Assembly: GCF_021134715.1 (NCBI RefSeq)
Contig: NC_060017.1
Coordinates: forward strand, 6,014,001-6,078,000
From: Daphnia pulex
Lineage: Eukaryota; Arthropoda; Branchiopoda; Diplostraca; Daphniidae
Reading direction: 5' to 3'
Length of the DNA stretch: 64,000 nucleotides
Both the position numbers and the translations under genes were made by a program. Positions 6,824 through 33,799 of this stretch are shown here, in pieces. Below the pieces are notes generated by a model, which was not told the DNA's origin, ran no database searches, and saw only the letters and a list, made by a program, of their open reading frames with translations. The first letter of the stretch is position 1. Every line of letters starts with the position of its first letter.

Positions 6824-7941
6824 TTAACCAACAACTAGGGTGTTTTCATCCACAAAAGTGTGAATTGGGATTTCCAAGTTCAAAGGAGCTGGGCCTTTGC
6901 GGATTCGGCCAGAAGCATCGTAGTGAGAACCGTGGCATGGGCAATAATAACCTCCAAATTCGCCTGTCAAAAAGAGAACTCGTTAAAAGCTTTTTTTTAC
7001 GTTGAAATATTATTGAAAACGTACCCGAATTTGCGATTGGGACACAACCCAGATGGGTGCACACTCCGAGCAAAACCAGCCATTCGGGACGCTGGGCACG
7101 GTCGGAATCAAGTTGTGGATCACGCAGTGTAGACATATCAACTTTGCTTTCCGTGTCGATTTCCTCCTAAAATAATGGGGGAACAATTGTCGATCAGCAA
7201 GAGTTATTTACGAGTCACAATCATAATCAATACATACCGCAGTGCGATGCCTAATGAAAAGGGGCTTTCCACGCCATTTGAAGGTAACGTTCTTACCCTC
7301 AGGGATGTCGTTCAGTTTAACTTCAATTTTAGCCAAAGCCAAAACATCAGCTGAAGCACTCATGGAGCCCACAAATTCACCAACAACAGTCTTGGCAGCA
7401 TAAGCACCACCAACTGCTCCACTGCCAACAATCAGATACGAGAATCCTTGTCGGCTAGGTGCGCTTGATTTGTTATCAGCACTGCTGTCTTTAAGATTGC
7501 TGCGTCTGTAGGCAGAGAAATCTGGGACTGAGACATCAGTGTGAGCAAATCGCACCTGGCTAGGACCTAAAAGGAGAAACAAAAAAAAAAATGCAATTGT
7601 AGCTTGAAAATGTAAGAGTGTCGACATTCAACATCGAAATTAAAGGCCACCATTTTCTGATGAAACAAAATTTTTTGTCTTGGCCCAAATTATCTAGAAA
7701 CAGTTTTATACAAGAAGAAAAAAATATTACCTCCAATTGAAACTGATGCCCTTATCGGATTAATCGGCAAACCAGCCGTTAAAGAGTTGGTCGTTAGTTT
7801 TTGGGCTGGTGGTGGAACTAGAACTCGTTCAATGTTGATGGTAACGGCCGGAGACAGAGCTTTCGAGCCATTTGCTACCGATTGTGTGGCAGCAACAGTT
7901 ACGGAAGATAAATTTGCCGAACGAGCAACAAAACTAAACAT
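6824..7941 (-). CDS. UQCRFS1: Cytochrome b-c1 complex Rieske iron-sulphur subunit, mitochondrial
   Basis: Catalytic subunit of respiratory complex III: its 2Fe-2S cluster takes an electron from ubiquinol and passes it to cytochrome c1. Four exons on the minus strand, 7941-7731, 7566-7238, 7166-7025 and 6963-6824, join with GT-AG sites in consistent phase to 273 residues, the normal family length. The N-terminus is a presequence without acidic residues at first ([13 protein letters not shown]). A hydrophobic glycine-rich membrane anchor follows ([19 protein letters not shown]). The cluster-binding boxes CTHLGC and CPCHGSHYD lie in exons 3 and 4, with the cysteine and histidine ligands intact. 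The protein ends ...[10 protein letters not shown]. Intron 2 and intron 3 are about 70 and 61 bp. Drosophila calls this gene RFeSP. Nothing is broken. Confidence 0.97.
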
Positions 7942-9251
7942 TTTTAGGCCGAGCTCACGAAGTTTTCGAGAGATTTTTAGTCGAGCAAAATGGACGAAGT
8001 TCTTGTCTGCAAAGAAAAGTGAACGATCGCTGCGTTGCCGGATTCTTTTTATAAAACGCGGTAACGACTTTTTCTTTTCGAGTCGTCGTCCGACAAGTTT
8101 TGAGGTCTACAAAGTAAACCTTATGAATTTTTACTTGATTTACTGCTATTCATAAACTAGAAAGCCAATATTGCATGCCGTAAATTAGATCGGGTTAAAT
8201 GTGGAGACGATTATATTTGACTGATTATTTATTTATTTGTCATGGTAATTGAAATAGTACAACGAATTCATCTCCTATTCTTTTTTTGTTGGCAACAAGC
8301 TCGTTATAATAACAAAGAGCGCTCCAAAGACGTCGATCGTCGAGTTGACATAACACATTACACACAAATAGGGACTTATGTTCAGCGGAAATGATGAATT
8401 CAAATGACCTCGACAATGTAACAGACAAGATTTAAGAATGCTAAAACTACAAATCAAGTCTCCGATTGATTTACTATCACCGTCGTAATAAATGTAAAAA
8501 GTCACATATTGAGTCTGTATTCCTTATCTGGCATTAGGTGTTGTTTATTATTCTTGTACTGCTCAAGTTGTCGCAGGCTTGTCAGTTAAGACAACAGTTT
8601 AACTTTTCAAAACTTGTGTCTGTATTGCACCTGTAAAAAGTTGCATGAGTTATTGCCTTTTTTACTCAACTTTGAAGCTACCTTTTCTTTTTGCGTTTTC
8701 CAGATTACTTGAAAGATTACTTTCCAGATTCAATGGGAAGCAAATATAATTCACCTTTATTTTTTTTTTAAATGTTTTTCTTTTTCTCGCGCGGTTGTTC
8801 GCGTTGCCATTTTTCATTCACACTCGAGTTGAGATGTAAATAATGATAAATTAGAATTCATATTTCATTCTAGTGTCTTTTTATAATTTTGAAAATATTG
8901 TGTTGAAGTTAAAGTCCCAAAATACAGTATATAAAAAATATTAGTCTATTTCAATATGAAAATTATAAATCTGGCACATTCAATTTTCCGAAGGATGGGA
9001 AACTCACCGGTAGAGGGAATTCGTCATACTCAATGAATGAAGTGACAACCACGTTTGAAATCACTTGAACATCGGCAATGAGACAATCAAGGTCTACTGC
9101 ATCTAAAGTTAAAATTGTTTTTGAGACTTGTTAAATGTTACATTCTGTTAATTTCGTTAAGTTAATTGAAGGGTGCGCAAGTTTTATTTATCATATTTAA
9201 GTATGCTTGATTTCTACGTGATTCACATTGTTTCCTATTATATCACCGCCA
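7942..9251. other. Intergenic: Rieske 5' flank and upstream region of the snoRNA host gene
   Basis: This gap between the divergent Rieske (-) and snoRNA-host (+) genes shows no coding or RNA gene. A pyrimidine-rich start region around 9231-9257 (CTTCCT at 9254-9259) precedes the first donor of the host gene and could be a terminal-oligopyrimidine start, as is usual for snoRNA host genes. Confidence 0.45.
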
Positions 9252-9296
9252 TGCTTCCTAAACGTGGTAAGTAATTTTCTGGGTTTTTACAATCCT

Positions 9297-9380
9297 GCTA
9301 GATGATGATCTCTCGAGTCTCGTTCGTATGAATTTGACAAGGTCATTTTATTGATTCCAAACTTAACTCATCTGATTTTT
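9297..9380 (+). ncRNA. Box C/D snoRNA, U30-like (predicted 18S target)
   Basis: C box ATGATGA at 9302-9308 and D box CTGA at 9372-9375, 74 nt apart, in the first intron of the host gene. The segment 9315-9327 (GAGTCTCGTTCGT) sits directly before a D'-like ATGA at 9328-9331. It is complementary over 13 nt to the conserved 18S rRNA stretch ACGAACGAGACTC. By the D+5 rule the methylated base is the second A of CGAA, the same A as human 18S A1383 guided by U30. The terminal stem is weak. Confidence 0.8.
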
Positions 9381-9527
9381 TAAATACTGTCTTCACTTCC
9401 ATCTTTTTTTTCCCATCCAACTAATCTAAGCATTTTTATTTAGATGATTCAGTTGTGGGAGATGTAACTTCATGAAACAAGCTCTGGAGATTTGCCATGG
9501 TAACTTAACTTTCATTCTGGAAAGAAA

Positions 9528-9614
9528 TAAATGAGTGATGAAACAACTTACCCAATCTGAGGTGGAATGATGTATTACTTAATTCATCCTTACCTACATT
9601 CTCTGAAGTGCATT
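9528..9614 (+). ncRNA. Box C/D snoRNA, predicted 28S target (AATGTAGGTAAGG)
   Basis: C box GTGATGA 9535-9541, D' CTGA 9557-9560, C'-like ATGATGT 9567-9573 and D box CTGA 9603-9606. The guide before the D box (9588-9600, CCTTACCTACATT) is complementary over 13 nt to 28S rRNA AATGTAGGTAAGG, a conserved stretch shared by human and Drosophila as I remember them. The predicted methylated base is the U in AAUGUAGG. AAATG before the C box can pair with CATTT after the D box. I do not know a named homologue. Confidence 0.75.
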
Positions 9615-9917
9615 TTAATTTAAAAATAGTGTTGTCCATCCCAGTTCTTATACATGTCTCTTCTGATAGGTTGTGCGTCAACCTGTCTCATGCTGTGAAG
9701 AAAAATGTAGAGGTGTGTATCATTTTCAATTCTAACTCGTTTTCTTGTACAAACTCGTTTTCTCATTGACAATTTTTATTTTGGTTTTATTTTCACTTTG
9801 GTTGAGTTTTTTAAGGTCTTAATGTGGTCTTGTTTTATTTTTGCAGGATTGCCTTTTTTGTTGGTGCTGGGATGTTGGATGACAGGTAATAGTACAATCT
9901 TTTTCTAAATCATTTTT

Positions 9918-10010
9918 TCTTTAATTGATGATAGCTAAGTACGATGCATCCGTTATACGCGATGGCTCTGCAACAAAATCATGAAATATCTTGCCCTCAC
10001 TGAAAGAACG
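9918..10010 (+). ncRNA. Box C/D snoRNA, SNORD103-like (predicted 18S G601 guide)
   Basis: C box TGATGA 9926-9931 and D box CTGA 10000-10003. The flanks form a clear terminal stem (TTCTTT before the C box with AAAGAA overlapping the D box end). The guide CTTGCCCTC (9990-9998) lies one base from the D box and pairs with 18S GAGGGCAAG. The fifth position is the middle G of GGG, which counts to human 18S G601, the SNORD103 site. The guide match is only 9 bp, but its register is exactly right. Confidence 0.75.
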
Positions 10011-10384
10011 ACTTTACTGAATAGTTGGACTTGGGTAGGAGTTTACTTAAATTATCCTCTCTTACTTCAGTTGTTTGCGGCTTGATTTCCTGGACTTCAT
10101 TCTGTGGAGGCTTGTGTGACCGGATGGTGGCTTTGCAGTTGATGTGATCGTGCGTCTTTCAGGTACTGAGTTGGTTAAGGAAAATATTTGGGCTGTGGTG
10201 TTAAGCATATGCCTGATAAACCGCACGGTTTTGATGTTAAGCTGGATACTGAGCTCATTACTTTAGATTTCTAAGGGTATTTCCATCTAACTATGCATTT
10301 TATTGTCTCAGATGATGGTGTGCAGCTTTTGATTCTACGAAGTAGAAATTTTTGAGGTAATTGAAATTCCTGTGTCAAAAAATC

Positions 10385-10523
10385 ACTATTCCGATCGCCA
10401 CGCCTCCTCCTCAATCAATGGGGAGGAAGGTGCCTAAATTTCGAACGGGGAAATTATGGTCACGTAGGAAGCAACTGAGATTGTATTGATCTTCAGGTTG
10501 TGCCTTAAACGGAGACGACAATG
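10385..10523 (+). ncRNA. Possible H/ACA-type snoRNA in a host intron
   Basis: This intron lacks C/D boxes but holds two hairpins. The first pairs CCTCC (about 10402) with GGAGG (about 10422). The second, near 10464-10510, has nested pairs CGTAGG/CCT..ACG, GCAAC/GTTGC and TGAGAT/ATCTTCA. An H-box-like AAATTA (10451-10456) lies between them and ACA (10518-10520) follows. The order matches hairpin-hinge-hairpin-tail, but spacing was judged by eye only and no pseudouridylation pocket was assigned. Confidence 0.3.
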
Positions 10524-10663
10524 GTGGTAGACGGGTGTAATTATAATTACTTTTTTTTTTAATTTTATCAATTTACCTTTTATTTCAGTTTTACTTAACC
10601 GTATTATGCCGCCGCGGGAAAATTAGGGAGGTAACTATTAATTTTCTAGTTTTTCCACTTAAC

Positions 10664-10732
10664 GTTCCATATGATTTTTCATCTTTCGGGTCTGAATGTA
10701 TTTGGATGACAACTTATTATTGCTGATGGAAC
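10664..10732 (+). ncRNA. Box C/D snoRNA, yeast snR39b-like (predicted 28S Gm guide)
   Basis: A perfect 6-bp terminal stem (GTTCCA 10664-10669 with TGGAAC 10727-10732) encloses a degenerate C box ATGATTT (10671-10677) and D box CTGA (10723-10726). The internal D' CTGA (10692-10695) is preceded by CATCTTTCGGGT (10680-10691), complementary over 12 nt to 28S ACCCGAAAGATG. The predicted target is the G of ACCCG, two bases 5' of human A1511, which corresponds to yeast Gm805 guided by snR39b. The C box is the weakest of the set, but stem and guide are strong. Confidence 0.85.
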
Positions 10733-11213
10733 ATTGCATCAAGTTTCAACATTTCTTTTATATGAAACTTTTTAACGCGGTTCAATTTTTCGAAAGGTTG
10801 CGGTGTGGTGCGATCTGTCACTGGCTTTGCTAAGGCGGATCTTCTCAGGTAATGTGTACAGGGCTTGCTGGTTGTTGCGTTTGTTTCGTCTTGTTGCCGA
10901 ATGTGGATTGTTATGTTAGTATTGTAAAGTGGAAACTTGTAAACTCGAGAAATTTTGTTTGTGTGTAATTTTTGCGTACACTGTATAGTAGTTCAATTTA
11001 AACTGGCTAGTCTATTTTAATAGTATCAACACTAAGTTGAAATGCTTGTAATGCTCATCTTGTATCTCACAGAATTTCCTTTTGGTGTTGACCAGTGAAT
11101 ATTTGTCATCTAGCTGGTTACCCTAGAACTGGGAGATGAGACTGGAAAATTGAAGGAGATGTACAACAAAGGCACAAAGGTGATTAAATGTTACCATCTT
11201 TCTAGTTTCTACA

Positions 11214-11286
11214 GATTATTGTGATGTTTAACTCAGACCTGTTCTGATTGATTTGAGGACAAATTGTTTTATATCTGAATTACTTA
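11214..11286 (+). ncRNA. Box C/D snoRNA, U25-like (predicted 18S G1490 guide)
   Basis: C box GTGATGT 11221-11227, D' CTGA 11244-11247 and D box CTGA 11275-11278. The D' guide CAGACCTGTT (11234-11243) is complementary over 10 nt to 18S AACAGGTCTG. Position five is the first G of AGG, equal to human 18S G1490, the target of U25 (yeast snR56). The terminal stem is poor. Confidence 0.75.
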
Positions 11287-11403
11287 AAATCAAAATGATG
11301 TTATAATGCTAGTTATTTTAATTTCAAGTTTTTTTGTAGGTGTAGAGGTCTTCTGACGGATATCACATGTCGGGTAACAAGTAAACTACTTTAATTGAAC
11401 TTA

Positions 11404-11490
11404 TTTCCAGTGATGATCATTCTTTCTGATGTGCACAATGTTGCTTTCTGAAGTCAATCAAAATATTAGACATGCATGACTCTGAGGAAA
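11404..11490 (+). ncRNA. Box C/D snoRNA a, copy 1 (18S 5'-region complementarity)
   Basis: C box GTGATGA 11410-11416, internal CTGA at 11426 and 11448, D box CTGA 11482-11485. TTTCC before the C box pairs with GGAAA after the D box. The D guide contains TTAGACATGCATG (11466-11478), complementary over 13 nt to the conserved 18S 5' region CATGCATGTCTAA. The predicted methylated base would be the A of GCCAUGCAUG (about human A50), with a mismatch at guide position 3. I know of no reported methylation there. Copy 2 preserves this guide. Confidence 0.85.
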
Positions 11491-11645
11491 GCTATTTTTT
11501 GCACATCCTGATTCCTATTAATCCATGTGCTTTGAAACATTTATATAGGCTCCAATAAGATGAGGTTGCTTGGGGTTTCCTGTGAGATTTCTTTATTATG
11601 TGAAGGTATATTATATGCTCATTCTAGCAAGGCTCAGTGTGTTAA

Positions 11646-11727
11646 TTTTAAGTGATGTCACAAGATTTCTGTGTCCAGGCCAATGATCATTTGTGATATA
11701 AACTATTTTGGTGACTACTGATTTTTG
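11646..11727 (+). ncRNA. Box C/D snoRNA b, copy 1 (target not recognised)
   Basis: C box GTGATGT 11652-11658, C'-like ATGATCA at about 11683-11689 and D box CTGA 11718-11721. The sequence between the boxes is almost identical in copy 2, including ATAAACTATTTTGGTGACTA before the D box. No rRNA match came to mind for either guide, so it may target rRNA at a site I do not recall, another RNA, or nothing. Confidence 0.65.
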
Positions 11728-11910
11728 TTAATTGGAAAAACTAGTAGCCATCTTCTGCACAATATTAACTGTTTCTATTTGGGTGTTAGGTTCTTTTTGG
11801 ATATGTAGCCTGGCGGACTTTATCATATCCATTAGCCCAGGGTATTGCTGCTGCAATTTAGACAGATTTCACAGTTCAGGTAATCAAGTAAAATACTTAA
11901 AGTGAACATA

Positions 11911-11998
11911 TTTCCAGTGATGATCATTCTTTCTGATATGCACAATGTTGCTTTCTGAAGTCAATCAAAATATTAGACATGCATGACTCTGAGGAAAG
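11911..11998 (+). ncRNA. Box C/D snoRNA a, copy 2
   Basis: Paralogue of the snoRNA at 11404-11490. C box GTGATGA 11917-11923, D box CTGA 11989-11992, and TTTCC/GGAAA terminal stem retained. The D guide with CATGCATG is unchanged, which argues that it is under constraint or that the duplication is young. Confidence 0.85.
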
Positions 11999-12172
11999 AT
12001 ATTTCTTTGTATTGAATGAAGTCTTGACTCCTATTAATCCATGTGCTTTGAAACCTTCATTCATTTAGGTGCCAAGAATTAAGAATAAGAGGTTGCTTTG
12101 GAGTTTACTGTGCATCTTCTGTATGATGTGAAGGTATGTTTTGTACTCATTCAAGCAGGGTTCTGTGTTGAT

Positions 12173-12253
12173 TTAAAGTGATGACATAAGATTTCTGTGT
12201 CCAGGCCAATGATCATTTATGATATAAACTATTTTGGTGACTACTGATTTTTG
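12173..12253 (+). ncRNA. Box C/D snoRNA b, copy 2
   Basis: Paralogue of the snoRNA at 11646-11727. The C box is canonical here (GTGATGA 12179-12185); D box CTGA 12244-12247. The guide-side sequence before the D box is the same as in copy 1. Target not recognised. Confidence 0.65.
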
Positions 12254-12430
12254 TATATTGGAAAGACTAGTAGCCATCTTCTGCACAATATCAACTGTTT
12301 CTATTTGGGTGTTTGGTTGTTTTTGGGTAATAGCCTGGTCGACTTCAACCCACAGGAGCTGCTGGACGAACAGGCTAGTATGTTGCTGCTGCAAATATTC
12401 TGGTATGTATAGTTACAATTTATTCGTCGA

Positions 12431-12502
12431 TTTACCCATGACGATATCATATTTCCAGAGATACAATGGTGGTACAAACTGATTTATTGAGACTGAGGAA
12501 AC
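12431..12502 (+). ncRNA. Box C/D snoRNA, U57-like (predicted 18S A99 guide), weak C box
   Basis: D box CTGA 12493-12496, preceded by a guide (12477-12491) that pairs with 18S CTCATTAAATCAGTT except for one mismatch at position 6. Position five is the A of CUCAUU, which counts to human 18S A99, the U57 site. A variant C box ATGACGA (12438-12444) and flanking TTT.CC/GGAAA can form the terminal stem. The non-canonical C box may mean a partly decayed gene. Confidence 0.6.
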
Positions 12503-12663
12503 TACACTTGACAAAATACGAGGATTTTTGTGTAACGGGTTTTAAGCGATGTTTTTACTTTTTTTCAGTCGGCCGTGCATCTCTAGTACTACTGCTACTG
12601 CCAAATTGCAAGCGATATCGTCTTTTTAAAGGTAATGCGATTCAGCTATAGATATTGAAATCA

Positions 12664-12740
12664 CAAATGAATGATGCATACCATTAATATTTTGAAGATT
12701 CTAATGATAGTTTAATTTTCGTCACTACCACTGATAAAAT
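12664..12740 (+). ncRNA. Box C/D snoRNA, SNORD70-like (predicted 18S A512 guide)
   Basis: C box ATGATGC 12671-12677 and D box CTGA 12731-12734. The guide TTTTCGTCACTACC (12716-12729) is complementary over 14 nt to 18S GGTAGTGACGAAAA. Position five is the A of GGUAG, which counts to human 18S A512, the SNORD70 site. The terminal stem is weak. Confidence 0.85.
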
Positions 12741-12932
12741 AACTTAAAAGTTTTTTATTATATCTGGAATTGCTATTAACGGTCTTCCTCTTGCAGGCTA
12801 GAAACAGGATGTCTCAGTGATTCAACTCTCGGTTTTCTGGAATCCCCTTTATCCTTAGCAGGTCGTACCTAGCTGTCGTGACATAGTTGGAAGTTAACGA
12901 TTAGGTAATTATCAGAATAGTATGAGTTAAGA

Positions 12933-13020
12933 AGTTAAAATGATGGATTGTATAACTTTCTGACATCTCTTCTGAGTTCATCATTGAAGATATTTTTACA
13001 GCTGCATACCTGAATAAACT
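12933..13020 (+). ncRNA. Box C/D snoRNA, U60-like (predicted 28S G4340 guide)
   Basis: C box ATGATGG 12940-12946, D' CTGA 12972-12975, D box CTGA 13010-13013, with AGTT/AACT available for a terminal stem. The D' guide (12957-12971, TTTCTGACATCTCTT) pairs over 15 positions, with two G-U wobbles, with 28S AGGAGGTGTCAGAAA. The predicted base is the G before GUGUCAG, equal to human 28S G4340, the U60 target. Confidence 0.8.
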
Positions 13021-13158
13021 AATGTAGTTATGGAGTGAGGCTTAGATAATGGTTTAAAAATTTGTTTATTTTCAGGTCAATACTTCGCAGCTTCATCTGT
13101 CACTACCTTACAGCGTGACCTGCATATACGCGTGGAATGCATTCAGGTTGGTAGAAGT

Positions 13159-13306
13159 TTGTTGGTATACCCCACTAATTAAGCCGATTGATTAAGTCCT
13201 TAACTGGCTATTCTTTGGTATACGGTGGGAACAGTAAATGCTAATCCGTGTAAGGTCTTCTACCCAATTGCTTGGTGGGTTATTTAAGGGTTGAATCAGC
13301 AATATT
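13159..13306 (+). ncRNA. Possible H/ACA-type snoRNA in a late host intron
   Basis: A first hairpin pairs CCCAC (13171-13175) with GTGGG (about 13225-13229), with inner GCC/GGC and TTAAG/CTTAA pairs. An H-box match ACAGTA follows at 13231-13236. A second, weaker hairpin runs from TGCT (about 13239) to AGCA (about 13298) with an ATA tail. Length and order fit an H/ACA RNA, but pairing was only assessed by eye. Confidence 0.35.
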
Positions 13307-13760
13307 ATAATAATAAGCTTATTGTTATTTTTCGTATTTTTGTTTAAAGTTCTTCGGAGATTGATATTCTTTCTTGGGATGTGGTCTGAGCCTGTGAGCC
13401 GCAATCTAGTTCACGCTTGGATACCATTCCATCGATCTCTTGAAGTAAAACTTGAAAATCACATAATTGACATAGTTAATTTTTTGTATCATAACTTTAT
13501 TTCTCAAATACCAATTTCAGCGGGTCTCTAAAGTGTGTGTCGTTGAAACTCTTCAGTCTCTTATGTGTTCTATGAGTGCTATGATTGTTCAGAAACATTT
13601 GGTCTATTGCAAAGTCGATTGTGAGTGTCAGTTCGTATTGGTCGCTCTTTACGTTGTCGATCTTAGCCTAACACGTGAGGCCGGATATCCTGAGAAGCTC
13701 GTTGCAAATTTACTTGTTAAAAAAAATAACCTTATTAAAAATTTGAATTTGGTTTGTTGA

Positions 13761-16700
13761 AAAAAAATTTGGTTAGTATGTTTTGGATATTTTCCCTCAA
13801 GACTAAATAATTTTTTGTTATCACATGTTATAATTTACCTTACTCCACTCACTTTCAACGATTCTGTTATATGTCGTCTTATCACCACTACCTACCACTG
13901 TCCACTTTAAAAAAAGGGTCCCAGGTGTTTGATTTCCAACCCAACCTGCACCCTAAGCTGATGCTGTTAGGCCTCATTTGCCCGTCTCTTCCCCTCTTGG
14001 ATTGACGAATAAAAAAGTAGTAGACGTAGCCAAGTCGATAGGAATTATTGTGGAGATGATTGCAGGTGTTTCGACAATACCGTGAAAAAACCTGAATCTT
14101 TGAGTGTATTTTACTTAAGTCTATTAACAAATGATGTCAAATATGGTTTTACGTGAGGAGTAGCCTGCTAGGTTTCGGTTTCGCAGTTGATTGGTAATGT
14201 CAAGGTCGTCTTGTTTTCCGCTCTGATTGGGTGTTCAGTCGTTCCCCACGCTATCCAACGATGACGTTTCTGATAAGACAATGAACGAAGAAAATTAATA
14301 GCAATAATCGACGGAAAAATTTGTCAGTGTGATAAATCATGGTTTGATCAGCGCAACTGATTAATCCACTGATAAATGTTAAATATGCGTGCCATAATTC
14401 ATTTTTGTTCAACTATAATTGAAAAAATTCATCCTCGCTAGTCTGCTGCCATCTGAAAAATAACTATAATTGTAATTGTGTCGCGTTTAAAAACCTATTT
14501 TTTTTTTCGTTTTTTTTTCATATATACCGTGAAGATTTCAAAAAAGAAACTGAAAACGCATTTGATGGTTACAATGTCCTGTGTATTGTGTCAATCGAAG
14601 TGTCGAAACGATTGCAGGTTGCCAATAAAAAAGAGTTTTATCTACGTGTGTTACTTTTACTTTGAGATAAAAGAAATTAAAAGAAGCTTATGGCACTGCA
14701 ACTGATCTCTGGCTGTCCGTCTTATCTTTCAGTATACCTAGGACCCTCGTGACTTGTCAAGACAGCGTTCTTGAGGAACTACTGCTGTCGTCACCTTTTT
14801 GTTGCTTCAAAAGTACTATGTTTCGTATTTTAACTGAAAGCTAAACCCATGAAATTGTTAAAATTAGTTAAAAATTTGGTTGTAAAATTTGGTGAGTTAA
14901 TGTTAATGCAATACCCCGCTATCCTAACACTTAACAGCAGTGCCTTGTCGAAGGCAGATTTTACGTTTGACTCTTGAATTTGTGGTTGTAAATTGAATCG
15001 TCTGCACGATATTTATTTTTTTCTTAAATTATTGTTCAATTTTCGTGTTGAGGTGTTGTATTGTCAAGGTAATCGTGTAATACATCCTGGGATTTGAACA
15101 TTTCCATATATTTGGAAAACGAATCCATCAGGCTCGACCGCTCGATCAGGCTACATTTTGACTGAGCAATTTTTTTTTGCGAAGAACCCTAATGAACTTA
15201 CGTTTAAAATGCATTTCTGGTTGCTAATTCGTCAGCAATATTTTCCGGATCCATCGCTTCCGATCCGGAATCCGACGCTTTTTTAATTACACATTTTCAA
15301 ACCGACGCTTTTTTAAATACACATTTAACTTTTGTACTGAGCGGAAAAGTTTCGAAATCCATCACCAGGTGCCACTGCAGTTTAATAACAACAATGGCTC
15401 CATTGTTACTGCATGAAGCGGTAGTCCCTTCATGGTTGCTGTTGTGTCTTACGTTTCGATGCAGTACTTAACCTATAACGTGATCTATTAAGTATTTCAA
15501 AGTGTTTGTTAAGTAGCATAATGTTGTAAAGCAGATAAGCTTTGACAATTTTCATCGGTCGTTGTCTTGTAGATTCCATGAAAGTCATGCATATTCAAAG
15601 TTGGCTCAGTTAAAGTGAGTATTTAAATTGAACCTGAAGAAAAGAAGAATGCATCTCTGCAAATATTGTAGATCAAAGTATTCTTTCTAATTAGGGCTAA
15701 TCCATGTGAAATATGAATTGAAAGATCTTAGCTGTTCTCCTGCTAACAGTTGTATGCCTAGTGAAATAAGTGAGTCATGCTGGTATTGCCAGCAAATTGA
15801 AAGTTCCACCAGATAAAGTCAATGTTAACTGCTGAATCTGGAGAAAAGAAAAACATAAATCATATTGTGTCTATCGTCAACTGTAACCTACATTTACAAA
15901 ATTCTTCTTAGTTAATTTAATATTTTGTATTTTTAAAATTTCCTCCACTTCTATTCCCACATGAAAAATAGCTATTAATGTCTGATTTCTTGTAACAGTT
16001 AAACAGTCCATGTGGGAAAAAATATTTAATAATCCAGACTGTTCATCTATTACCAGTTTTATATGAAGTAAATTTAGACTGATGTCTGACACAAAGGCAA
16101 AATATCCAACTAAAATTCTCTTCATAATTGTGGTGTCCGCGGGTGTACGTTTATTGTAAAGTTTATACTAATTCCTGTTATTTTTCCTTTAGGTGATGAT
16201 CAGATATATGGAAAATATTCTAGGGAATGACGCCTCAAAAGAAAGAACTGTGGTTGCAATCTTCAACAATCTTGCGTGAGTCAAGTTTTTTTTATTTATT
16301 TTTTTTTCTGCTTGTTATTTTTGTTTCTAATTTTAGTAAGTCTCGATTAGCTAGAGCAGGGATCCTTTTCATTTTACTGTTTTAAATTTTAAACATTTGT
16401 TGTTTACAACGCTAGATGGTTATACGATGGCTTAGATTGTTTTCAGCGGTAAAAAACATTAGTTTCAGTGTTTCAGTGTTTCAGTTACTTTTACTATACA
16501 CTTTTCTTGTTTGTTTGCAAAACTGAAAAAAATCATCGAAGAATTCTTCGTCAACGTCAATTTTGTTAATGCCAAAAAACAGTGCAGGAAGAATTCATCC
16601 CGTTAACGCTATTTCGTGTGCCCTGACATGCAGGATACGAATTGCTTGTAATCTAAAATTGAGCGAAGATGATGGACAAGACTCACAAGAGTAGCAACGC

Positions 16701-18640
16701 AGAAGCTGCTCACCTCTGGAAGCTGGCGTTGAGCGAATGAAATCAAAGTAAATTGCAGTTTGTTCCGTGTCTTCCACTTCCAAATCAGTCGCTCTTCTCA
16801 GAGCCTGATTGAAGTGATTGACGAATTTGGTAAATTGGTCCACCCATCAAAGTGTGAAGTTCCCTTGATGTATTTAGTCGTAATAATTTTTTTTAAATTG
16901 TTATTGTTGTTGGCACCATGTTCCATGTTGTTGGCTGAGACACTGAAGATGACATCTTGTGGCCAGGTTTGTCTTCAGTTGTTGGGCGTAGGCTAGCCCT
17001 TTAGCCCCTACCTTCTTGGTTCTTTGTTAGTTGAATCAGGAGGTTCTGAGAGAAAGAGTCGCCATTTTTATTTGTTTGGGGTTTTGATGTTATCTTAATT
17101 AACTGGAGTGCTACTTGTTAGGCATTTCTTAAAATTTGTGATGGGTTTTAGTTGGTTTGGGTCGGCGGTTCGTGAGCTTGCTATTATTCTTGGTATAATT
17201 TATTCGATTAAATTCTATTGCATGTTTGAAAGTGGCCTGAAAGTGTTTAATTTCATTTTTTATTTGTAGACGAATTTTGATGCTGAAAGACTTGGAAACC
17301 ATGCTGTCCACCACGCCGAGAAGCTGAGTAACATTCTGCTTGTACAATGGTAAAATTAACAATTAAACTGATTGAAATATATGTGGATCATAACATTTGT
17401 AATGTTTGATTGCAGGCGCCTCTTAATAAAAGGAACTTGAGCCATCCAATCTAGGGCTTCCATCCAATCGTGCAGGCTGCATGGAAGTCACATTTACCTT
17501 TGCTGTGAACATCATGAACACATACACTATTTGAAGGTGACAATCTTATCCAGTTTAGATTTTACAATTAAAATGTGATAAAGCTTTGCATCCATTGGTT
17601 AGTTTTAACATTTTGGGATTTCATATAGTTAACAGCTATTTCCTTCAGGGTTGTGTTATGGATTTTTTAAAGGGGAGTTTGTTGTATGCAAGAAAGGCAA
17701 ATTCCAAAAGAAGTTTTGTTTATTTGTTCCATTGTTGAGTATCCTTTAAAGTTTAAATGAATTTGTATTTAAATCTTAAATTAGTCATCTAGTTTCATGT
17801 AAATTTATTAATTTAAGTTTCCACGATAGGTATAAGATAATGTTGCCATATAATATTTGGGTTGAATATTTGAAGTGATATAATGAAGCATATTATTTTT
17901 AGTTTCGTACAGGATTTCCAATGATGCTGAAGATTAATTTTATTTTGTTTATAGGTTCATGTTTATGTAACAGTGGTGTTGTTGCAGCCTTTGGTGGTGA
18001 AAGATATCTGCATCAAGTTGCTGTTCCTGTCCAAGGTGGTGTGTTGTTGCAGACTATGGTGGTGAAAGATATCTGCATCAAGTTGCTGTTCCTGTCCAAG
18101 GTGGTGTGTTGTTGCAGACTATGGTGGTTAAAGATATCTGCATCAAGTTGCTGTTTCTTGTGCATCCAAGGTGTTGGTTTTGTGCTACAGAAGTGACATC
18201 CAATATTGTGTTTAATTGCTATTCGTGTCTATGCAGTTTACCTTTTACATGTTGATAAGAAACAAAAAAAGTAATATGGGGAGGATTATGTCAAACAAAT
18301 AATAAACATGTCCGGGATGGGGAAATGAGGAGGAAGTTGGGGTGGGGTATTTGGTTATGATTTACTAAAAGAAGTGAGGTATATTTGTAATGAATATGCT
18401 GTACTTTGTTATAAAAACTGTCGTTAACCTATACCTTCCTGTCAACCTATACCTCCCCTACTTCCACTTACACATCTATTCCTAAAACCACATAAGCACC
18501 AACATCAAATCCCACATATCCACTCACATCCATTCCTAAAACCCCACAAACACCAAACCCCCACCATTCACACAATTGTTGTATATGTATAATTAAATTT
18601 TAATAAATAAAATGCATTGTATATAACATGTGTGTAACTA
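13761..18640 (+). other. Region with scattered exon-like segments, no coding gene recognised
   Basis: No canonical C/D snoRNA was found after 13020. Splice-like segments occur, for example a TTTCCTTTAG acceptor before 16193 with a GTGAGT donor at 16274, and a TTTATTTGTAG acceptor before 17271 with a GTAAAA donor near 17350. They contain short open frames that do not continue in the next segment. Overlapping AATAAA signals at 18602-18611 may end a transcript. The stretch could be the 3' part of the snoRNA host RNA or a separate non-coding gene. Confidence 0.4.
17977..18175 (+). repeat. 65-bp tandem repeat, about three copies
   Basis: The motif AAAGATATCTGCATCAAG begins at 18000, 18065 and 18130, giving an exact period of 65 bp. 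The first two copies are nearly identical and the third diverges at its 3' end. A period that is not a multiple of three, with the reading frame shifting between copies, argues against coding. Each unit contains a TGTTGTTGCAG acceptor-like sequence. Confidence 0.9.
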
Positions 18641-25600: not shown

Positions 25601-28600
25601 TGGCGTTTTGTGTTTGTGAAAATACAAACCAGCGGGACAGGCACTGGCCGTCATGATTATTTCAGAGCCTTCAACATTATAAATTATTAATCTACTTTCG
25701 GCCCGTTTCCAATGCTGATCCGATGATCCTGAAAGCATGTGCATGGACCTGTTTGATGATGGAACGGGGTTCGGAGGCATCTATAGGCGAACGAATGTTT
25801 TATAGTCCCGCGTCGGCTCTCTCTCTCCCGGTAGTCTTCGGACGTTCCGCAACCTGATGACGTACAACACCCGATGACAAAGTTTTCCAAGGCATACCCC
25901 GGCCTCCTTAAATCAAAGACTACCAAACCCCCGAGTTGCAGAGTCTTGTGGCTGGCTACTAAATCATTTAACTGACTTTTCAATACATTCACGACGCAGT
26001 TTCAAACTCGGGAATTTAACTCTTTCGGACCCCCCCGGCAAGAGCGTCACTTTGCGCCACTCACGGCAGACTATCAAATAATTCAGATGCCGATTTTTTA
26101 CAGAATGGAGATCGGTTGTTTTTTTACATCTTTAAGTAAAAAGTCACCAACGAACTAGAAAATTGGGGAATCTCAGCCAGAACGGAAAAAGTTTAAATCC
26201 TGGATAGCTAACGTTTATATCCATTTGGGTTGTTTTTGAAATTGGGAATGCATGATTGATACGGCTTTCGTGACTCTCGCTACTTAAAGTGATAAGGTCT
26301 TGTGAAAATTTGATTCGCTTAAGAGCACAGCAAATGCTGGCGGAACCGAAAACAATCTCAAGCAGCTAATACTTTAATAGCACCCAAAAGTCTCATTTGC
26401 CATTACGTCCGTTGACCCCTTAAATGGTGATAGTAATAACACATAAAAGGTCTAGAAAAATACAATCATAATTGTTGTACTTACCCCGGTAGCAGCATCC
26501 GCCGTCCGACCAAACGAAAAACACGACCACACAAAACACTTACGTACACGATCACGCACAATCAAAAATGGCGACATGTTCGATCCATTATTGTATTTGT
26601 TGACAAGGATTAAGGCGAGATGATGCCAGCAAAACAGCAAAAAAAAATGAGGAAAAATTAAACAAATGATACCTGGCAAAACACACACGAAAACGTGAGC
26701 AAAAGAAATTAAAGAGACGTAGAAAGATAATTTTTTTTTCGGGTAAAAAATAAACAAACGTGCAGCCATCGATTTGAGGACGATCGAGCGAAATAAACGG
26801 ACATGAAAAAAATATTAGTCCTCGATGCGAGAGAGAGATTGTCACAAGTGCAATTCGAGAAACGTTTTCAAGAGAAAAAATAATTGGCGACATCTTTTGG
26901 CACCTAAACACGACAAATAAATCGACGACTTGAGGAATCGCTACTCGCTACTACTCTAGACCGAAAAAAAAGAGAAAGATGACAACCAGACGCTTTTTCT
27001 TCGAAAAAATGATAAAAAAAATAATTGTAAAAAGATGGAAAACGAGATGAAAAACATTGGAATATGGCCGCCGAATTGGCACAGTGCGTTACGGGAGACT
27101 CGAATTGGCCTGGGAACAACAACGAAAAAAAAACATAAAAAACACACACACGACACTCGATTGGCACAAAATTGGCCAACAAGGTTATTTCGATTTGATT
27201 GTCGCCTTTTGGCAATTCTTTCATCACGACCGGTTAAACGGTCATTAATTTACACGCAAAAATGGGTAACAGTTTTTAGAGAAAAACAAAATGAGAAAAA
27301 GAGTGGAAGACTGGAAAATAATTTCTTTTTTTCAAAGGAGATGGAAGACCGATCAAGTATTGCCACTCTTTTTTAAGACACGAAAAAATCAATCACGAAC
27401 AAGGGGAATGTAACAAGCTCTCATAACTCATATATCCAAAAAAATAAGGAGAGCGAAACTACTACAGTCAGGAGAGGCTATTAAGAGAGAAGAATAGGCA
27501 GAAAAAGAAGAAAAATATATAAAACTTTTTCTTCTTTTTTTTCCAAGTGATCCCTTACCGAAAAACTTCCGGAACGAATAACAACAACAACTCGACTCCG
27601 CCTCCTACTCTTTCCATTATTTTTATGATTATTTTTATTACAACCCCCCTTATTTCTCTGCTCCTTTCCCCACTGGTAAGTCACCGCTCCGCACACACAG
27701 AAAACCCGCTACAGAGAGTGTGTCGTTTCAACAGAAAAATCGACACAAGACACATAATAATAAAGACAAATAATTTTTTGAGCGATAATTAAGGCACAAA
27801 CAAATTCTACCCGAGAAAATTTGTATACAATGTCAAAAATTGAGGAGGTATTTTGGGGTGAAAAAAAAATAACATGTTTTGATGGCTTTTATCTCTTTTC
27901 CCTTTTCATTATTTTTCTCTCAACTTGTTTTCTTTTTTCCTGGTTCTCGAGGTACTATAAATCAATCAAATTTCAAAAAATACCCTTGTTTTTTAAATGT
28001 TGTTTGAATATTGCTGATGTAAAAGAAAGAAATTCATCCGCGATGAACCGAGAGGTTCTCCGGTTCGGGATCGCTATCGTCTCCGTGGTCGTGATCGACA
28101 CTGTGCGTCCTACTCCTCAAATTGTGTCTGTGATTCTGTCTCTGCTGCTGGAGGAGAAAGGCATGACTTAGCTGAAACGCCTGGCTCAAATGAATGTTGT
28201 TGTTGTTGATGCTACGGAAAGCCGACGCTGCTGCAGCGGCAGCAGCGGCCACTGTCATGTGATTCCCACCACCACCACCACCAACGGGCAGTTCCTCTTC
28301 AAAAGGTTTTGACAAATTCTCAGGGATCAACTCATCGGGTGGCGAGGGTGAGAGGTTATTGTTGTTGGATGAGCCGGACGAAGCGGAAGAGGCCGAGCTG
28401 GGTGACGAGCGATTATTGTTGTTGTTGTTATTGTTGTTTTTATTCTTGCTGGACTTGTTGTTGTTGTTGTTCTTGACGTAGAAGAGCGACACAATGTTGT
28501 GCTTCTTGCAAAATGCCCACCACCATCTGAATCCCATCAAGTTGCCCAGTTTGAAAGAGGGCTGGCCTTTACTTTGTTTCAGCTTCTCCACGAATGCGAC

Positions 28601-31600
28601 GATGGACTCGAGCGACTTATTGGTCCGCCGGTTGTACGGCATGACGCTAGTCTCGCAGCAAAAATCCAGCACAGCTTCTTCATCCTGGGCGTCTAGGCCG
28701 AGCTCGTCCAGGACCAACATGCGCTTCGATTTCCCCAAAATGTTGTCGTACAATGTTCCTTTTGGGATGTTGAAATGAGACGAGGCCTGAGTGAAGCGCA
28801 TTTTCTGTGTCACTATCGAGTTGATGGCCTCCTGGAGCGTCTCCTTTGACCAGGAAGGAGCTTTCGAACGCCACTGGACTAGCGACTCTTCACATTCGAA
28901 CAACAAAATGCGCAGGGGGGGGGGGAGAAAAATAGAAAAACAAAAAAAAAACAAAAATGAAAATAAAAACCAAAACATAAATCAATCAAAATCAAATCAG
29001 AAATCAAAATGGAAGAAAAATAGGTCCCAAGAAGAAAAGAAAAACCATGAAAACAAGAGTGTCTTGATGAATAGATGATTACGGGATGGGTGGCGGTATA
29101 TGAGTCGGATGATTCCGACGAAGGAAAAAAGTCGAATGACGACAAAGATCAATTTCAAATGAATTGAATGAGTGAAATGTGTCATTCATTCAGAGACATT
29201 CGAGGACACAATGAAACGGTAAGTTTTGTCATGCGAAACAGACATGCCAGATCTACTAATGAAAACCTCTCGTCATGGCGGATGCAACAACAACTACACA
29301 GAGATTCTTTTGTTCGTCAGTCCCGTGAAAAATTCAAACTCCAAGGGAGGAGCTGACGGACAAGAGAGATAAAGCATGCCCTTACCCTGTCACAGTTGTG
29401 TGTGTAGACCCAAATTTGTTTCAAAAGTAGAGGGGAAAAAAGAAACCAGTAAAAAAAAGAAAAAGAGAAATAAATAAATAGGCAGTCCGGTTCTTACCTG
29501 AGAGCACCGACGGTGAAGCGGTCAACCACGGGTGAGTCCCTTCCAGCATCCGGGCCTGTTAAATTTAAAAGAAAAATTTAAAAGATGGCATATAGAAAGA
29601 TGGGCTTTTTTTTTAATTTTTCTCTTTTGCTTCATGGCGAAAAATAAATTCCTGATTTGAGATTTTTAAGGTAAATCTTTCCATAGTCCACAGGTAAAAA
29701 AAAAAAATTGGCTATGGGGTTTCTCACGATCCTGTAGGCTATTAAAAAAAAAGAGTTGCTCAATAGAAATTGGGAGCGTCCACACAACAGAACCGGCGTT
29801 ACGAGGCCGATCCATCAATAAATGTGAATTCAGTTTGGGGCTGTCCGGTATTTGAAGAAATGGTGGAAAGGTTTTTTTTTTTACTTCCTTTTTCCAAAAA
29901 AAGGTAAAAATATAAAAATGTTGGGTTTCCTAGTGACATATCCCCCCGAAGAAACGACGGAGATATGTACATATATATATATTGAGGGTTCTCTATCTTT
30001 TTATTATTATTAAAAAGAGGAAGGGGAGGCTCATAAAACATGTCCCTTTGGAAATTGTACTGGCTTTTTTTTTTAATACTGGTATTTTATGATTTTTTAC
30101 AACTTTCCGAGAGAGGGAGCAATGAAAAACAGGTTGCAAAAAAGGAAAAAAAAAAAAAAGAGAACGGTACCCACCACCTCAGCGGGTGGGCAATACCCAC
30201 CCTACCTACCTACCTCTCCTTTCTTTTGGCTTTTATCCCTCTTCTACCTTTAGTTGTATATATACTTATATACTTCTACTTACACCCCCTCGTTTTCACA
30301 AAAGAAGAGGTATTGAAATGATGGGGGTACTTTACTCGTTTTCTCTTCTCGACTCTCTCTCTCCCCTCATATATATTTCTATATTACTTTTGTAGAAAGA
30401 AGAAGAAGAGTCGTACACAGAAAAATGCCTGGTTAAGTTCCAAGTGGTCAATGCCCCAGTGGACCGAGTCCATCTTTCTCTCTCTCCTGTAAGGTGCAGG
30501 AACAAATACTATTTTTCTAGAGATGAAGCGGATGGCTGAATCTCGACGACGACTCATTAAAAATGCAAGTGCTAATGACAAACAAGGTATATTGATTGAT
30601 ACCTCCCTCTATTCTATCTTGTCTGAAATGTTGCCATCGATCCAAACTGGGAAAAGAAAAAGAGCTGCAATTGTTTTGTTGGCAGCATCCAATAAGGACG
30701 TGATGAAGTTGTACCATAGGAAGCACTACTACTACTACTACTACAACAACCAGCATATATGTAGATATAAATATACACCCTTGGAAAAAAGAAAACTAGC
30801 TGCGTCGTTAACCGTTTTACAGCTTCACCGAGTCGAATTGAGCTGACCTCCACACACGAGTCTCTCGAGAGATCTCGACTCGATGGGGAAGAAAAAGGAT
30901 AACCATCATGGACACAATTCTCTCCAGGTAACAAGACCAATAGAGAAGAAAGACGCTTTAAGGAGAGCGTGTGTGTGTGAATGTCATCAACTATACCCCC
31001 AGACAGGTGTCAATATAATAACGGAGGGTACCATATTCTTTTAGGGTTCGGAAAAACAAGTGGCAATAACACCTTTTTTCCCCCCTCTCGTGTTCCTCAA
31101 TTGTTTTTCCAACGACCTTCGACTGACTGATGTACCAAATACACATTTTTTTCGTCCTGTCAAAAAATAAAGCTTGACATTTCTTCGCTCGAATCTCCTA
31201 ATCTCTCGGTCTATACTAAAAAAAAAGCTAAGTTGATATAATAAGAGCTACATTTTATAATCATGCGACTAGGGGGAATTGGGATGTGATTTTGGAAATA
31301 AAATAAACAAAACGACACGCTCTAATCACGTCTTTTTCCAGGTTTTCCGAGATGGGAAACTGTGCACCGATTTTTTTCTTCCTTCCGTTGAGTGAACATG
31401 ATAATAATAAAAAACTACTATTCAATAGATGATTGTGAACGACTTGTTTGTTGTTCTTCTCCAACTGGCAACAACACATCGCTTAGCTTTTTGAAAGATT
31501 GAAGAGACGGAAAGAGGAGGTAAGATTAATGATACCACTGTGTGTGTGTTTGTTTCCAGCGGGTCTGCTCTTCTATTCCGGTTCCCGAATAACATGGATC

Positions 31601-33799
31601 GATGGTGTTTACCTCAAGACGTTCACAATGTATCCATACACACAGTTGAATATTATAAAATATCAAAAAGAGAATAAAGAACGACGGCGACGACGACGTC
31701 GGCTCTCAAAAACAGGAAGAAGCGCATTTTCGCAACGGATCCTTCCGCTGGATCGCCCCGCAATAGACTCTCTCTCACAAAAACTTTTGACAAAATGCAC
31801 AGACAAATAAAGAGACTATCAATGGATGTCGGCGTCTATTGTGCTCCCAAGCAGGTATTCCTATGTAATCCATCAGCCGAGCGATATCATTTTCAAGCTT
31901 CAATGCATCCCAGGATTGCGGAGAAACATCATTGAAACTTAACGTACTGTGGCTATATGGTTTGTTTGTTGCCCCGTGTACAAAAACATTTCCCCATTTT
32001 TTTTGTCTTTAATGAAATTCGGGCTCATGTTGTTCGTTTCCCATTAACGGCCAACAAAAAAAAATCCTGGAAGGAGGAGGGCAAAAAAAAAACGGCGGCA
32101 TCGACGAGAGGTCGAAGGGATTTTGGGACCTCAGCAGGGGGTGTCGGGACTGGTCACCTTTCAACCTTAAAAGAACAAAAAAAAAGAGGGGGGCCTCGAA
32201 GAAGAAGAAACATTTTCAGCCCTCGAGTGAACATCAAGGCCATCGTGCACCACCAAAGCGTCTTCAACTCCCCACCACCATCTTCTCCAACCCCCATAAG
32301 AAAAAATACCATTTTTTCTATTTTATTTTCAACATCTCCGGAGGGAGAGAGCTCATTTTTTTCTTCTTTTCCAGTTTCCCTTTGGTTTTTTAACAAGCGT
32401 CGGAATGTGGCGCCGAGGGCACCATCTATATAACTTTTCCCCCCTTCTCGAAAAATATATATAAGAAAAACAACTTGTAAGAATAATAAATACAGAGAAA
32501 TTCTAATATTTATCGGGTTCTGTTTTTGGAAGGCGTCGCGACGCTAGACCTCATTTGAGAGAGAATATTGGGCGTCTATCGACCTTCGAATAAGATAAAC
32601 AACCACGGGTTTCCTTTTTTAATAGACGGCGGATGCAGTTATATTCTTTCGAAATTCAGATAAGATTTTTCTACTTAACTAGACTAACTGCTTATCAACT
32701 TCCGGAAAAAAAGTGACGTCTAAGTTAAATAAAAATTGACAAAACTTACCCTCTCCTCTTCGCGGATGAGTTCTGCGATGCCGGGCTTAATATCAAGGTC
32801 ATCCGAGTGGGCCAGTGGATGTTGATGGAGAGAAGATGGAGGAGGCGGTGCCTGGGTCAAAGCCTGCGGCGCCAACGAGGCGGAGGAGGCGACCGGACTG
32901 TGCGGCGGTGGTGGTGGCGGCGGCGGCGGCGCTTGTTGTTGATGACCAACCAACGAGAGTGGGCCGTCGTGATGGTCCAAACTAGCCTCTTCGTGATGCT
33001 GATGATGCATTCCCGGAGTCGAAGCGGCTGCCGGACTCGAGGCGCCACCGATTGGACTTTCAGACCCCGAAATGCGACGTCGTTTGACGCCAGACGATCG
33101 AGACGCCGGAGCAGGAGTGGGCGAAGGGGTAGGCGTCGTAGCCATTTCTTCATCCATGACGTGTCCAGGCCACGCCGGTTGTTGCTGCTGCTGATGATGA
33201 TGAATTTGATGATGATGATGATGAGGCAATGTTGGCCATGTCGGACTGTCCGTCTGTCTCCTGACGGCTGCAGCCGATGAAGATGACGACGACGTCGATG
33301 GGCCGGCCGTCGGATGAATGGGAATCAGCGGACTGGATTCGCTGCGATCATCGGCCGTAACGGCGGCAGCAGCAGCGGCGTGTCGGTCGCTGTTGAGCTC
33401 CGAGAGTCCTCTGATTTTGAGCGTCTCGGCGACGCGTAAAAGGGACGTCAGTTCCTCCTGGGCGACGGAGATCTCGCCGCGGTACATGTACTCGACGATA
33501 GCCTTGAGTTCTGGCCAGCGGGTGTCCTTCAAAATGACAATGGGATGCTGGCAGGGATTGTCAAAGAAGAGATGCTGGAAATAGGGCGAACAGGCTGACA
33601 GGACCATGCGATGGGCCTTGATGGCGTGTCCATCGGCCGCCAGAGTGACGTCGACAAACGTCTCATTCTGCAGCAGTTGATCAAAGACGCTGGTCAAATT
33701 GGACTGGTAGTTGTTCCAGCGGAGGCACAGGTGCGGCGACGAGCCGCCAGACGCCGCCGATGATGACGACGACGACGTCGAGGCCATTTTCGATGACAT
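22620..33799 (-). CDS. BTB-Psq transcription factor, bric-a-brac-like, isoform with BabCD (Psq plus AT-hook)
   Basis: A nuclear sequence-specific regulator; in Drosophila, bab1/bab2 pattern legs, ovary and pigmentation. Exons 33799-32750, 29555-29498, 25302-25133, 24429-24336, 23822-23596, 23533-23398 and 23293-22620 join in phase to 802 residues. The BTB domain (about 24-130) begins LCLRWNNYQSNLTSVFDQLL and contains VLSACSPYF and NPCQHPIV, for dimerisation. Poly-Ser, His, Gln and Pro linkers follow. A Psq motif (about 403-446, WRPETMAEAI then DIPYPTFVLYANRV) is followed by an AT-hook (KGRGRP); together these form the Bab conserved domain. The tail has Asn8, Ala9 and an acidic stretch. The last exon may lose a 57-bp in-frame intron (22987-22931), giving 783 residues. 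The 5' UTR continues upstream past the acceptor at 33823/33824. Symbol left empty because bab1/bab2 orthology cannot be decided here. Confidence 0.85.
22931..22987 (-). other. 57-bp optional intron or insertion containing a 5S-rRNA-like 16-mer
   Basis: Read on the minus strand this starts GTACGT and ends ATCCAG, and removal keeps the frame (19 codons). The open frame also reads straight through it. On the plus strand it contains CCGAAGTTAAGCAACG, which matches the conserved internal control region of arthropod 5S rRNA as I remember it. A preceding GATCAC also matches with a 3-nt insertion. It is too short to be a 5S gene. Confidence 0.5.
25303..28033 (-). other. bab-like gene: intron between alternative 3' exon and BabCD exons
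   Basis: No additional coding exon recognised. The part just below 28033 would be the 3' UTR of the isoform that ends at 28034. Low-complexity and poly-purine tracts are frequent around 26.6-27.9 kb. Confidence 0.5.
28034..33799 (-). CDS. Same bab-like gene, alternative 3' exon: BTB plus Psq/CENP-B-type HTH and two PENLS motifs
   Basis: Exons 33799-32750, 29555-29498 and 28887-28034 also join in phase, giving 653 residues and a different C-terminus. The alternative exon starts after ATGTGAAG and stays open to its own stop at 28034. It encodes a Psq motif (about 381-422, WSKETLQEAINSI then NIPKGTLYDNILG). An HTH-like region follows (about 430-505) with NRRTNKSLE and RWWWAFCKKHNI, resembling the CENP-B/pogo second helix-turn-helix. 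Then come Asn, Ser and Ala-rich tracts and two PENLS motifs, which fit the PxDLS-type CtBP-binding consensus, the second just before the stop. Using this terminal exon or skipping it to 25302 would give two DNA-binding versions behind one BTB domain. The acceptor is imperfect and splicing is inferred. Confidence 0.65.
28888..32749 (-). other. bab-like gene: introns around the 58-nt exon 29498-29555
   Basis: Apart from the 58-nt coding exon (starting ARMLEGTHPWLTASPS), nothing coding was recognised. The DNA has C/G homopolymers (28915-28924), A tracts and (TA)n-like runs (about 29970-29982). Open frames on both strands are low-complexity. Confidence 0.5.

Follow-up and report, generated by a model that had tools for sequence, protein, structure and literature searches.

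The stretch examined here is a 64,000-nucleotide (nt) window of the Daphnia pulex genome (assembly GCF_021134715.1, contig NC_060017.1, positions 6,014,001 to 6,078,000 of the forward strand), in which positions 9252-13760, numbered from the first letter of the window and read directly and in full, appear to hold a non-coding host gene for an array of box C/D small nucleolar RNAs (snoRNAs). We scanned 9201-13760 for a C box matching RTGATGA at 6/7 or more positions and a D box reading CTGA, with a C-D spacing of 50-100 nt, and compared the outcome with 30 dinucleotide shuffles of the same interval. The scan returned 16 C/D pairs, where the shuffles averaged 3.47, and eight strong D guides (score of at least 24), where they averaged 0.3 and never exceeded 1; when strong guides at either D or D' were counted, the numbers were 14 and 0.73. 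Applied at the same cut to both strands of the whole window, the scan placed 14 pairs in the 4.5-kb bin 9000-13500 of the + strand, versus 11 in the other ~123 kb of strand. The 16 pairs resolve into 11 distinct snoRNAs and five redundant, overlapping or spurious pairings. Two further RNAs lie outside the scan filter and bring the total to 13, such that at this spacing 11/13 have a C box of at least 6/7, a SNORD2-like RNA has one of 5/7, and a U27-like candidate has no good C box.

Guides were matched to a presumed human ribosomal RNA (rRNA) sequence, whose numbering is used throughout (the 28S numbers are given as presumed positions), and the targets were compared with Rfam consensus sequences of the small and large ribosomal subunits (SSU and LSU) and checked as exact strings in each of three divergent eukaryotic ribosomal DNA (rDNA) loci. 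All thirteen RNAs lie on the + strand. The first, U30-like (9297-9380), has a C box at 9302, a D' box ATGA at 9328 and a D box at 9372, and its D' guide matches 18S over 13 base pairs (bp) with D+5 at A1383. It is followed by a SNORD34/snR62-like RNA (9530-9611; C 9535, D 9603), whose D guide matches 28S AATGTAGGTAAGG over 13 bp and sets D+5 on the U of AAUGUAGG, which we take to be U2824, presumably the SNORD34 site, and by a U103-like RNA (9920-10008; C box TTGATGA at 9925, D 10000) with a 9-bp D guide to 18S G601. In intron 5 of the host lies the probable U27-like RNA (10168-10257; D' 10213, D 10249, no canonical C box), whose D' guide points to 18S A27 over 10 bp. The SNORD2/snR39b-like RNA (10664-10732) combines a C box ATGATTT at 10671, a D' box at 10692, a D box at 10723 and a 7-bp terminal stem with a 12-bp D' guide to the G of ACCCG in 28S, presumably G1509, and the U25-like RNA (11213-11284; C 11221, D' 11244, D 11275) has a 10-bp D' guide to 18S G1490. 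Two RNAs then occur twice: snoA, which is weakly SNORD33/32-like (copy 1, 11403-11491, C 11410, D 11482; copy 2, 11910-11998, C 11917, D 11989) and whose 13-nt D guide matches 18S 49-61 with D+5 at A50, and the SNORD66-like snoB (copy 1, 11646-11727, C 11652, D' ATGA 11683, D 11718; copy 2, 12172-12253, C 12178, D' 12209, D 12244), whose D' guide is directed to 18S C1272 with one mismatch to human. The array ends with a U57-like RNA (12433-12501; C box ATGACGA at 12438, D 12493; 14/15 pairs from D to 18S A99, with the mismatch at D+6), a SNORD70-like RNA (12668-12736; C 12671, D 12731; 17/18 pairs from D to 18S A512) and a U60-like RNA (12935-13018; C 12940, D' 12972, D 13010), whose 15-bp D' guide reaches the last G of AGGAG in 28S, presumably G4340.

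A preliminary description of this DNA had counted at least eleven C/D snoRNAs, a figure that is borne out and even slightly understated by the 12 well-supported RNAs and one probable RNA found here, and the seven guides that it had placed in the D+5 register (U30-, U103-, snR39b-, U25-, U57-, SNORD70- and U60-like) are all present. The SNORD34-, U27- and SNORD66-like guides and a tandem duplication within the array are additions to that account.

In 10 of the 12 strong snoRNAs, D+5 falls on a known conserved site of human rRNA, the other two being the snoA copies, whose site is unlisted. Among the distinct 18S predictions of this strong set, 6/7 coincide with known human sites (binomial P 7e-10, using a list of 40 sites), the seventh again being that of snoA. 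For each of U30, SNORD34, U103, SNORD2 and U25, the target string occurs without mismatch in one or more of the three rDNA loci (L054 in the case of SNORD34), and the Rfam SSU consensus reproduces the target strings of U25, U103, U30, U57 and snoA with almost every letter in place. We take HBII-234 and HBII-142 to be synonyms of SNORD70 and SNORD66. Pairs of snoRNA and site are in print for SNORD25, 27, 30 and 66 (PMC6466398, Table 3, which gives the U30 site as C1383) and, in chicken numbering, for U57, HBII-234, U103, HBII-142, snR39B and U60 (PMC2653536, Table 1), both papers being drawn on here, as below, in excerpt. In the latter, the guide lies on the same side (D or D') as in Daphnia for U57, SNORD70, SNORD66, snR39B and U60.

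The exon-intron structure is a hand model, with start, end and splice sites set from the sequence and acceptors chosen with the snoRNAs in view. In this model, a putative non-coding host transcript runs on the + strand from 9254 to about 13720, with 19 exons at 9254-9266, 9444-9499, 9670-9712, 9847-9885, 10071-10162, 10312-10356, 10497-10534, 10589-10630, 10797-10848, 11073-11179, 11340-11373, 11549-11605, 11790-11879, 12069-12133, 12334-12402, 12569-12631, 12797-12904, 13076-13146 and 13521-~13720. All 18 possible introns have GT..AG ends; 12 carry the predicted well-supported C/D snoRNAs, intron 5 probably carries the U27-like RNA, and introns 3, 6, 7, 9 and 18 (5/18) are without a recognised C/D snoRNA. 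Intronic C/D snoRNAs typically lie about 70 nt upstream of the 3' splice site, and here the D box precedes the modelled acceptor by 59-76 nt in 12/13 cases. In snoB copy 2 the distance is 86 nt, because the TTAG used as acceptor in copy 1 reads TTTG in the copy alignment and the next AG was taken. The spliced model is 1,284 nt long and its longest open reading frame (ORF) spans 55 amino acids, a length reached by 161/300 shuffles, indicating that the model exons, to which this result applies, hold no ORF beyond chance. The putative start at 9254 reads CTTCCT, which resembles a terminal oligopyrimidine (TOP) motif by eye; the snoRNA host gas5 reportedly has a TOP-type start, to go by the title of a cited paper.

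The duplication provides an internal comparison of exons and snoRNAs. Copy 1 (11374-11879, + strand) comprises intron 11, exon 12, intron 12 and exon 13, and copy 2 (11880-12402, + strand) comprises intron 13, exon 14, intron 14 and exon 15. Between the copies, snoA is identical at 99% (88/89) and snoB at 95% (78/82) of positions, whereas the two exons are identical at 74% (42/57) and 72% (53/74) of the columns without gaps, the gapped columns numbering 1 and 29, respectively. Taken together, the snoRNA cores agree at 97% (166/171) of positions versus 73% (95/131) for the exons (Fisher P 6e-10, within one genome); identity in the remaining intron segments is 77-92%. The plain reading is that the snoRNAs are under purifying selection and the exons drift, although gene conversion confined to the snoRNAs could also account for their identity. 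Chicken snoRNA paralogues arose nearly all by intragenic duplication, according to the excerpts of PMC2653536. Two further features adjoin these RNAs: the 62 nt that follow snoB (11728-11789 / 12254-12315) are 92% identical, above the other non-snoRNA intron segments, and an 18-nt inverted repeat (10646-10663 / 11727-11744, 94% complementary) lies beside the SNORD2- and snoB-like RNAs, possibly by chance.

Several observations weigh against a functional snoRNA host at this locus. A covariance search, which the preliminary description had proposed as a check, yielded no match at the Rfam gathering threshold in the whole 64-kb window, though at a permissive setting (up to E=5) on 7000-16000 it recovered the same families below threshold. 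Of the 12 permissive matches, nine, with some overlap among them, were to C/D snoRNAs within the region on the + strand; one H/ACA RNA was matched on the other strand, and the remaining two matches, to miRNA families, fell beyond the region. The sub-threshold C/D matches comprise snR56 (37 bits) at 11217-11280, with U25 (22.7 bits) at the same place, SNORD2 (31.4 bits) at 10664-10732, SNORD70 (30.6 bits) at 12668-12736, SNORD57 (29.7 bits) at 12433-12499, SNORD33 at 11910-11998 (25.7 bits) and 11403-11491 (25.2 bits) and SNORD60 (24.9 bits) at 12935-13018; a separate match to snR62 (24.8 bits, E 5.6) at 9563-9638 was weak. At its own threshold Rfam is thus blind here, so that annotation easily overlooks genes of this kind. 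Terminal stems, judged by eye, are clear in the SNORD2-, snoA, U103- and SNORD34-like RNAs and poor in the U30-, U25- and SNORD70-like ones, and an automatic acceptor picker put only 7/13 D boxes at 55-80 nt, where 2.8 were expected (21% of random points). The U27-like RNA, which has neither a C box nor an Rfam SNORD27 match, is the weakest of the set.

On the target side, two rRNA pattern searches of the species' genome gave no matches, and six other target strings are exact in none of the three divergent rDNAs, their best mismatches being one for U27, two for U60, three each for snoA, SNORD66 and U57, and six for SNORD70. For these inexact strings the claim is carried by the presumed human sequence, by the Rfam family (U57, SNORD70, U60) or by the consensus (U57, snoA). 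With human rRNA, the U57- and SNORD66-like guides each mispair once, at D+6, and they would do so with the rRNA of the species if the two positions concerned are as in human; we predict that this rRNA instead has an A after A99 (target CTCAATAAATCAG) and a U after C1272 (target GGCCTGGACAC). The U103-like guide is at D here but at D' in chicken, in the excerpted table (PMC2653536). In viral contigs, 28S and 18S patterns had no matches; a 28S piece had none in phages and only short matches, in 46 records, in plasmids. The rDNA loci L030, L054 and L106 are eukaryotic sequence inside prokaryote records of metagenome-assembled genomes in GTDB, presumably as contamination.

With these points weighed, the boxes and in-register guides confirm, at the level of sequence, that a snoRNA array is present, and we are highly confident that the locus is a non-coding snoRNA host gene of the UHG/SNHG type in a crustacean: a new gene of a known kind, ordinary in type. 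The earlier characterisation of a dense non-coding snoRNA host gene is thereby supported by the intron ends, the chance-level ORF and the greater difference of exons than of snoRNAs between duplicates. In the mechanism that we propose, RNA polymerase II would transcribe the locus from near 9254, the transcript would be spliced, and its exons would be discarded or remain inert. Each of 13/18 introns would yield one C/D snoRNA through debranching and subsequent exonuclease trimming, and these snoRNAs would guide the 2'-O-methylation of conserved 18S and 28S rRNA positions by fibrillarin. The locus thus offers ready predictions of ribosomal methylation sites, and its internal duplication sets the drift of host exons against adjoining snoRNAs that stay constant.

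The U25- and U30-like RNAs do share a host, as in human UHG, and the preliminary description had proposed that part of this linkage may be ancient; a linkage with human UHG is not established by our results. Direct orthology with human UHG/SNHG1, in which a U25-U27-U30 linkage would go back to the bilaterian ancestor, would add to the host-gene reading, and we regard it as unlikely. The order here, U30, U27, U25, is reversed relative to the presumed human order, and the hypergeometric P for the set shared with SNHG1 is 0.13-0.26 for U25 and U30, compatible with chance, and 0.03-0.08 when the U27-like RNA is included (family numbers assumed), leaving the linkage suggestive only. Human SNHG1/UHG is likewise a non-coding host of U25, U27 and U30, as excerpted from PMC6466398, which speaks for common descent. 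Unlike SNHG1, however, and with the comparison confined to snoRNA content, the Daphnia host also holds guides that are hosted elsewhere in vertebrates, five of them lying in the chicken hosts PUM1, EIF4A2, EIF4G1, NOL5A and NOP5/58 (PMC2653536, excerpts), and movement of snoRNAs between hosts is described as ongoing by Hoeppner and Poole (PMC3511168, likewise in excerpt).

Far less probable than the non-coding reading is a protein-coding host with intronic snoRNAs, of the kind formed by ribosomal-protein or NOP58 genes. Many vertebrate C/D snoRNAs do reside in coding hosts, as the PMC2653536 excerpts report, and 19 short exons look gene-like, but the chance-level ORF of the model exons and the poor conservation and gapping of the duplicated exons beside nearly identical snoRNAs speak against it. 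Least probable, by a narrow step, is that the array has decayed and its former snoRNAs are now partly pseudogenes, for while the deviant C boxes (ATGATTT, TTGATGA, ATGACGA), the U27-like RNA without one and the uniformly sub-threshold Rfam scores would suit decay, 9-18 positions of each guide remain intact, in register and on conserved sites, and the diverged duplicates keep their snoRNA cores.

A non-coding host gene of this type has counterparts in human, mouse and fly (PMC2653536, excerpts). Drosophila Uhg genes contain as many as 16 introns, each with a single snoRNA, and those described earlier together account for 48 snoRNAs, in the excerpted text of PMC4430873 (they are treated further in PMC13228274, also in excerpt). 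The Daphnia locus resembles them in its non-coding reading and in carrying one snoRNA per snoRNA-bearing intron, and differs, in overall architecture rather than gene by gene, in having 18 model introns of which five lack a recognised C/D snoRNA. The Uhg1 promoter of the fly has a CACGTG E-box, whereas none occurs near the inferred start here, the nearest in the window being at 4314 and 13672. The gas5 and chicken gas5-like hosts are also non-coding with many C/D snoRNAs, but the snoRNAs recognised here include none that the PMC2653536 excerpts list for the chicken gas5-like transcript (mRNA CR387333). A literature search for Daphnia and snoRNA returned, among the matches listed, no host-gene study.

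The duplicated and almost invariant snoA is the one new lead of the locus. Its D guide forms 13 pairs without mismatch to 18S 49-61 (CATGCATGTCTAA), pairing from D+4 and placing D+5 on A50. In human, 18S A50 is not known to be methylated. The chicken methylation table, as excerpted (PMC2653536), has no entry at the snoA target either. The best, sub-threshold Rfam family for snoA is SNORD33, and an alternative pairing to 18S 1324-1334, with 10 pairs and one mismatch, would place D+5 on G1328, which is the U32 site in the excerpts of PMC6466398. The two pairings together leave three readings of snoA: it guides a new site, pairs with 18S in a chaperone-like manner or is a degenerate guide of the U32/U33 type, from which it may derive. 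We tentatively propose, at somewhat less than even chances, that the 13 perfect pairs guide an undescribed 2'-O-methylation at 18S A50, a candidate new site, or serve a chaperone role there.

Other candidates in and around the array were rejected. A second D box at 9663 for the SNORD34-like RNA (10 bp to 28S), which is one of the eight strong D guides counted, was discarded because it lies inside the presumed polypyrimidine tract. A U14-like candidate at 13386 (16/17 pairs to 18S 455-471) has no C box, has 131 nt between D box and acceptor, lies inside a stable hairpin and would place D+5 on C459, not on C462, presumably the site of U14. The hairpin (13347-13452; z -2.96 for 13335-13480) belongs to intron 18 and contains CTTTCTTGGGATGTGGT, complementary to that same 18S segment; Rfam on intron 18 alone gave three matches, none convincing. 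We claim no H/ACA RNA: the folding z score was -0.01 at 13158-13310, +1.57 in intron 9 and -1.86 in intron 6, where 9/200 shuffles were equally stable. Intron 6, which has no recognised snoRNA, contains a strong hairpin at 10400-10434 (CCTCCTCCTCAATCAATGGGGAGGAAGG; z -1.86). An 18S match past the 3' end of the host gene (14258-14357) and scan matches of at least 28 at 17138-17237, 33194-33261 and 55194-55096 were taken as chance.

Elsewhere in the window, a separate C/D candidate on the - strand (51368-51429; C box 7/7) has a 17-bp D guide to 28S GTCTCCAAGGTGAACAG and, with a score of 40, is the best of the whole-window scan; by its spacing to U2824, its D+5 would fit C2791, the site presumed for U39/U55. 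Pfam matched seven of ten window ORFs (HTH_psq, BTB, Ras/Arf, TM2, HEAT below cut-off, tRNA-splicing endonuclease and UCR_TM) and none of the other three. The UCR_TM match (Rieske transmembrane domain) is to an ORF at 7208-7627 on the - strand, the host gene being on the other strand, and the BTB and HTH_psq ORFs, at 28034-33814 on the - strand, possibly form one BTB-Psq transcription factor gene.

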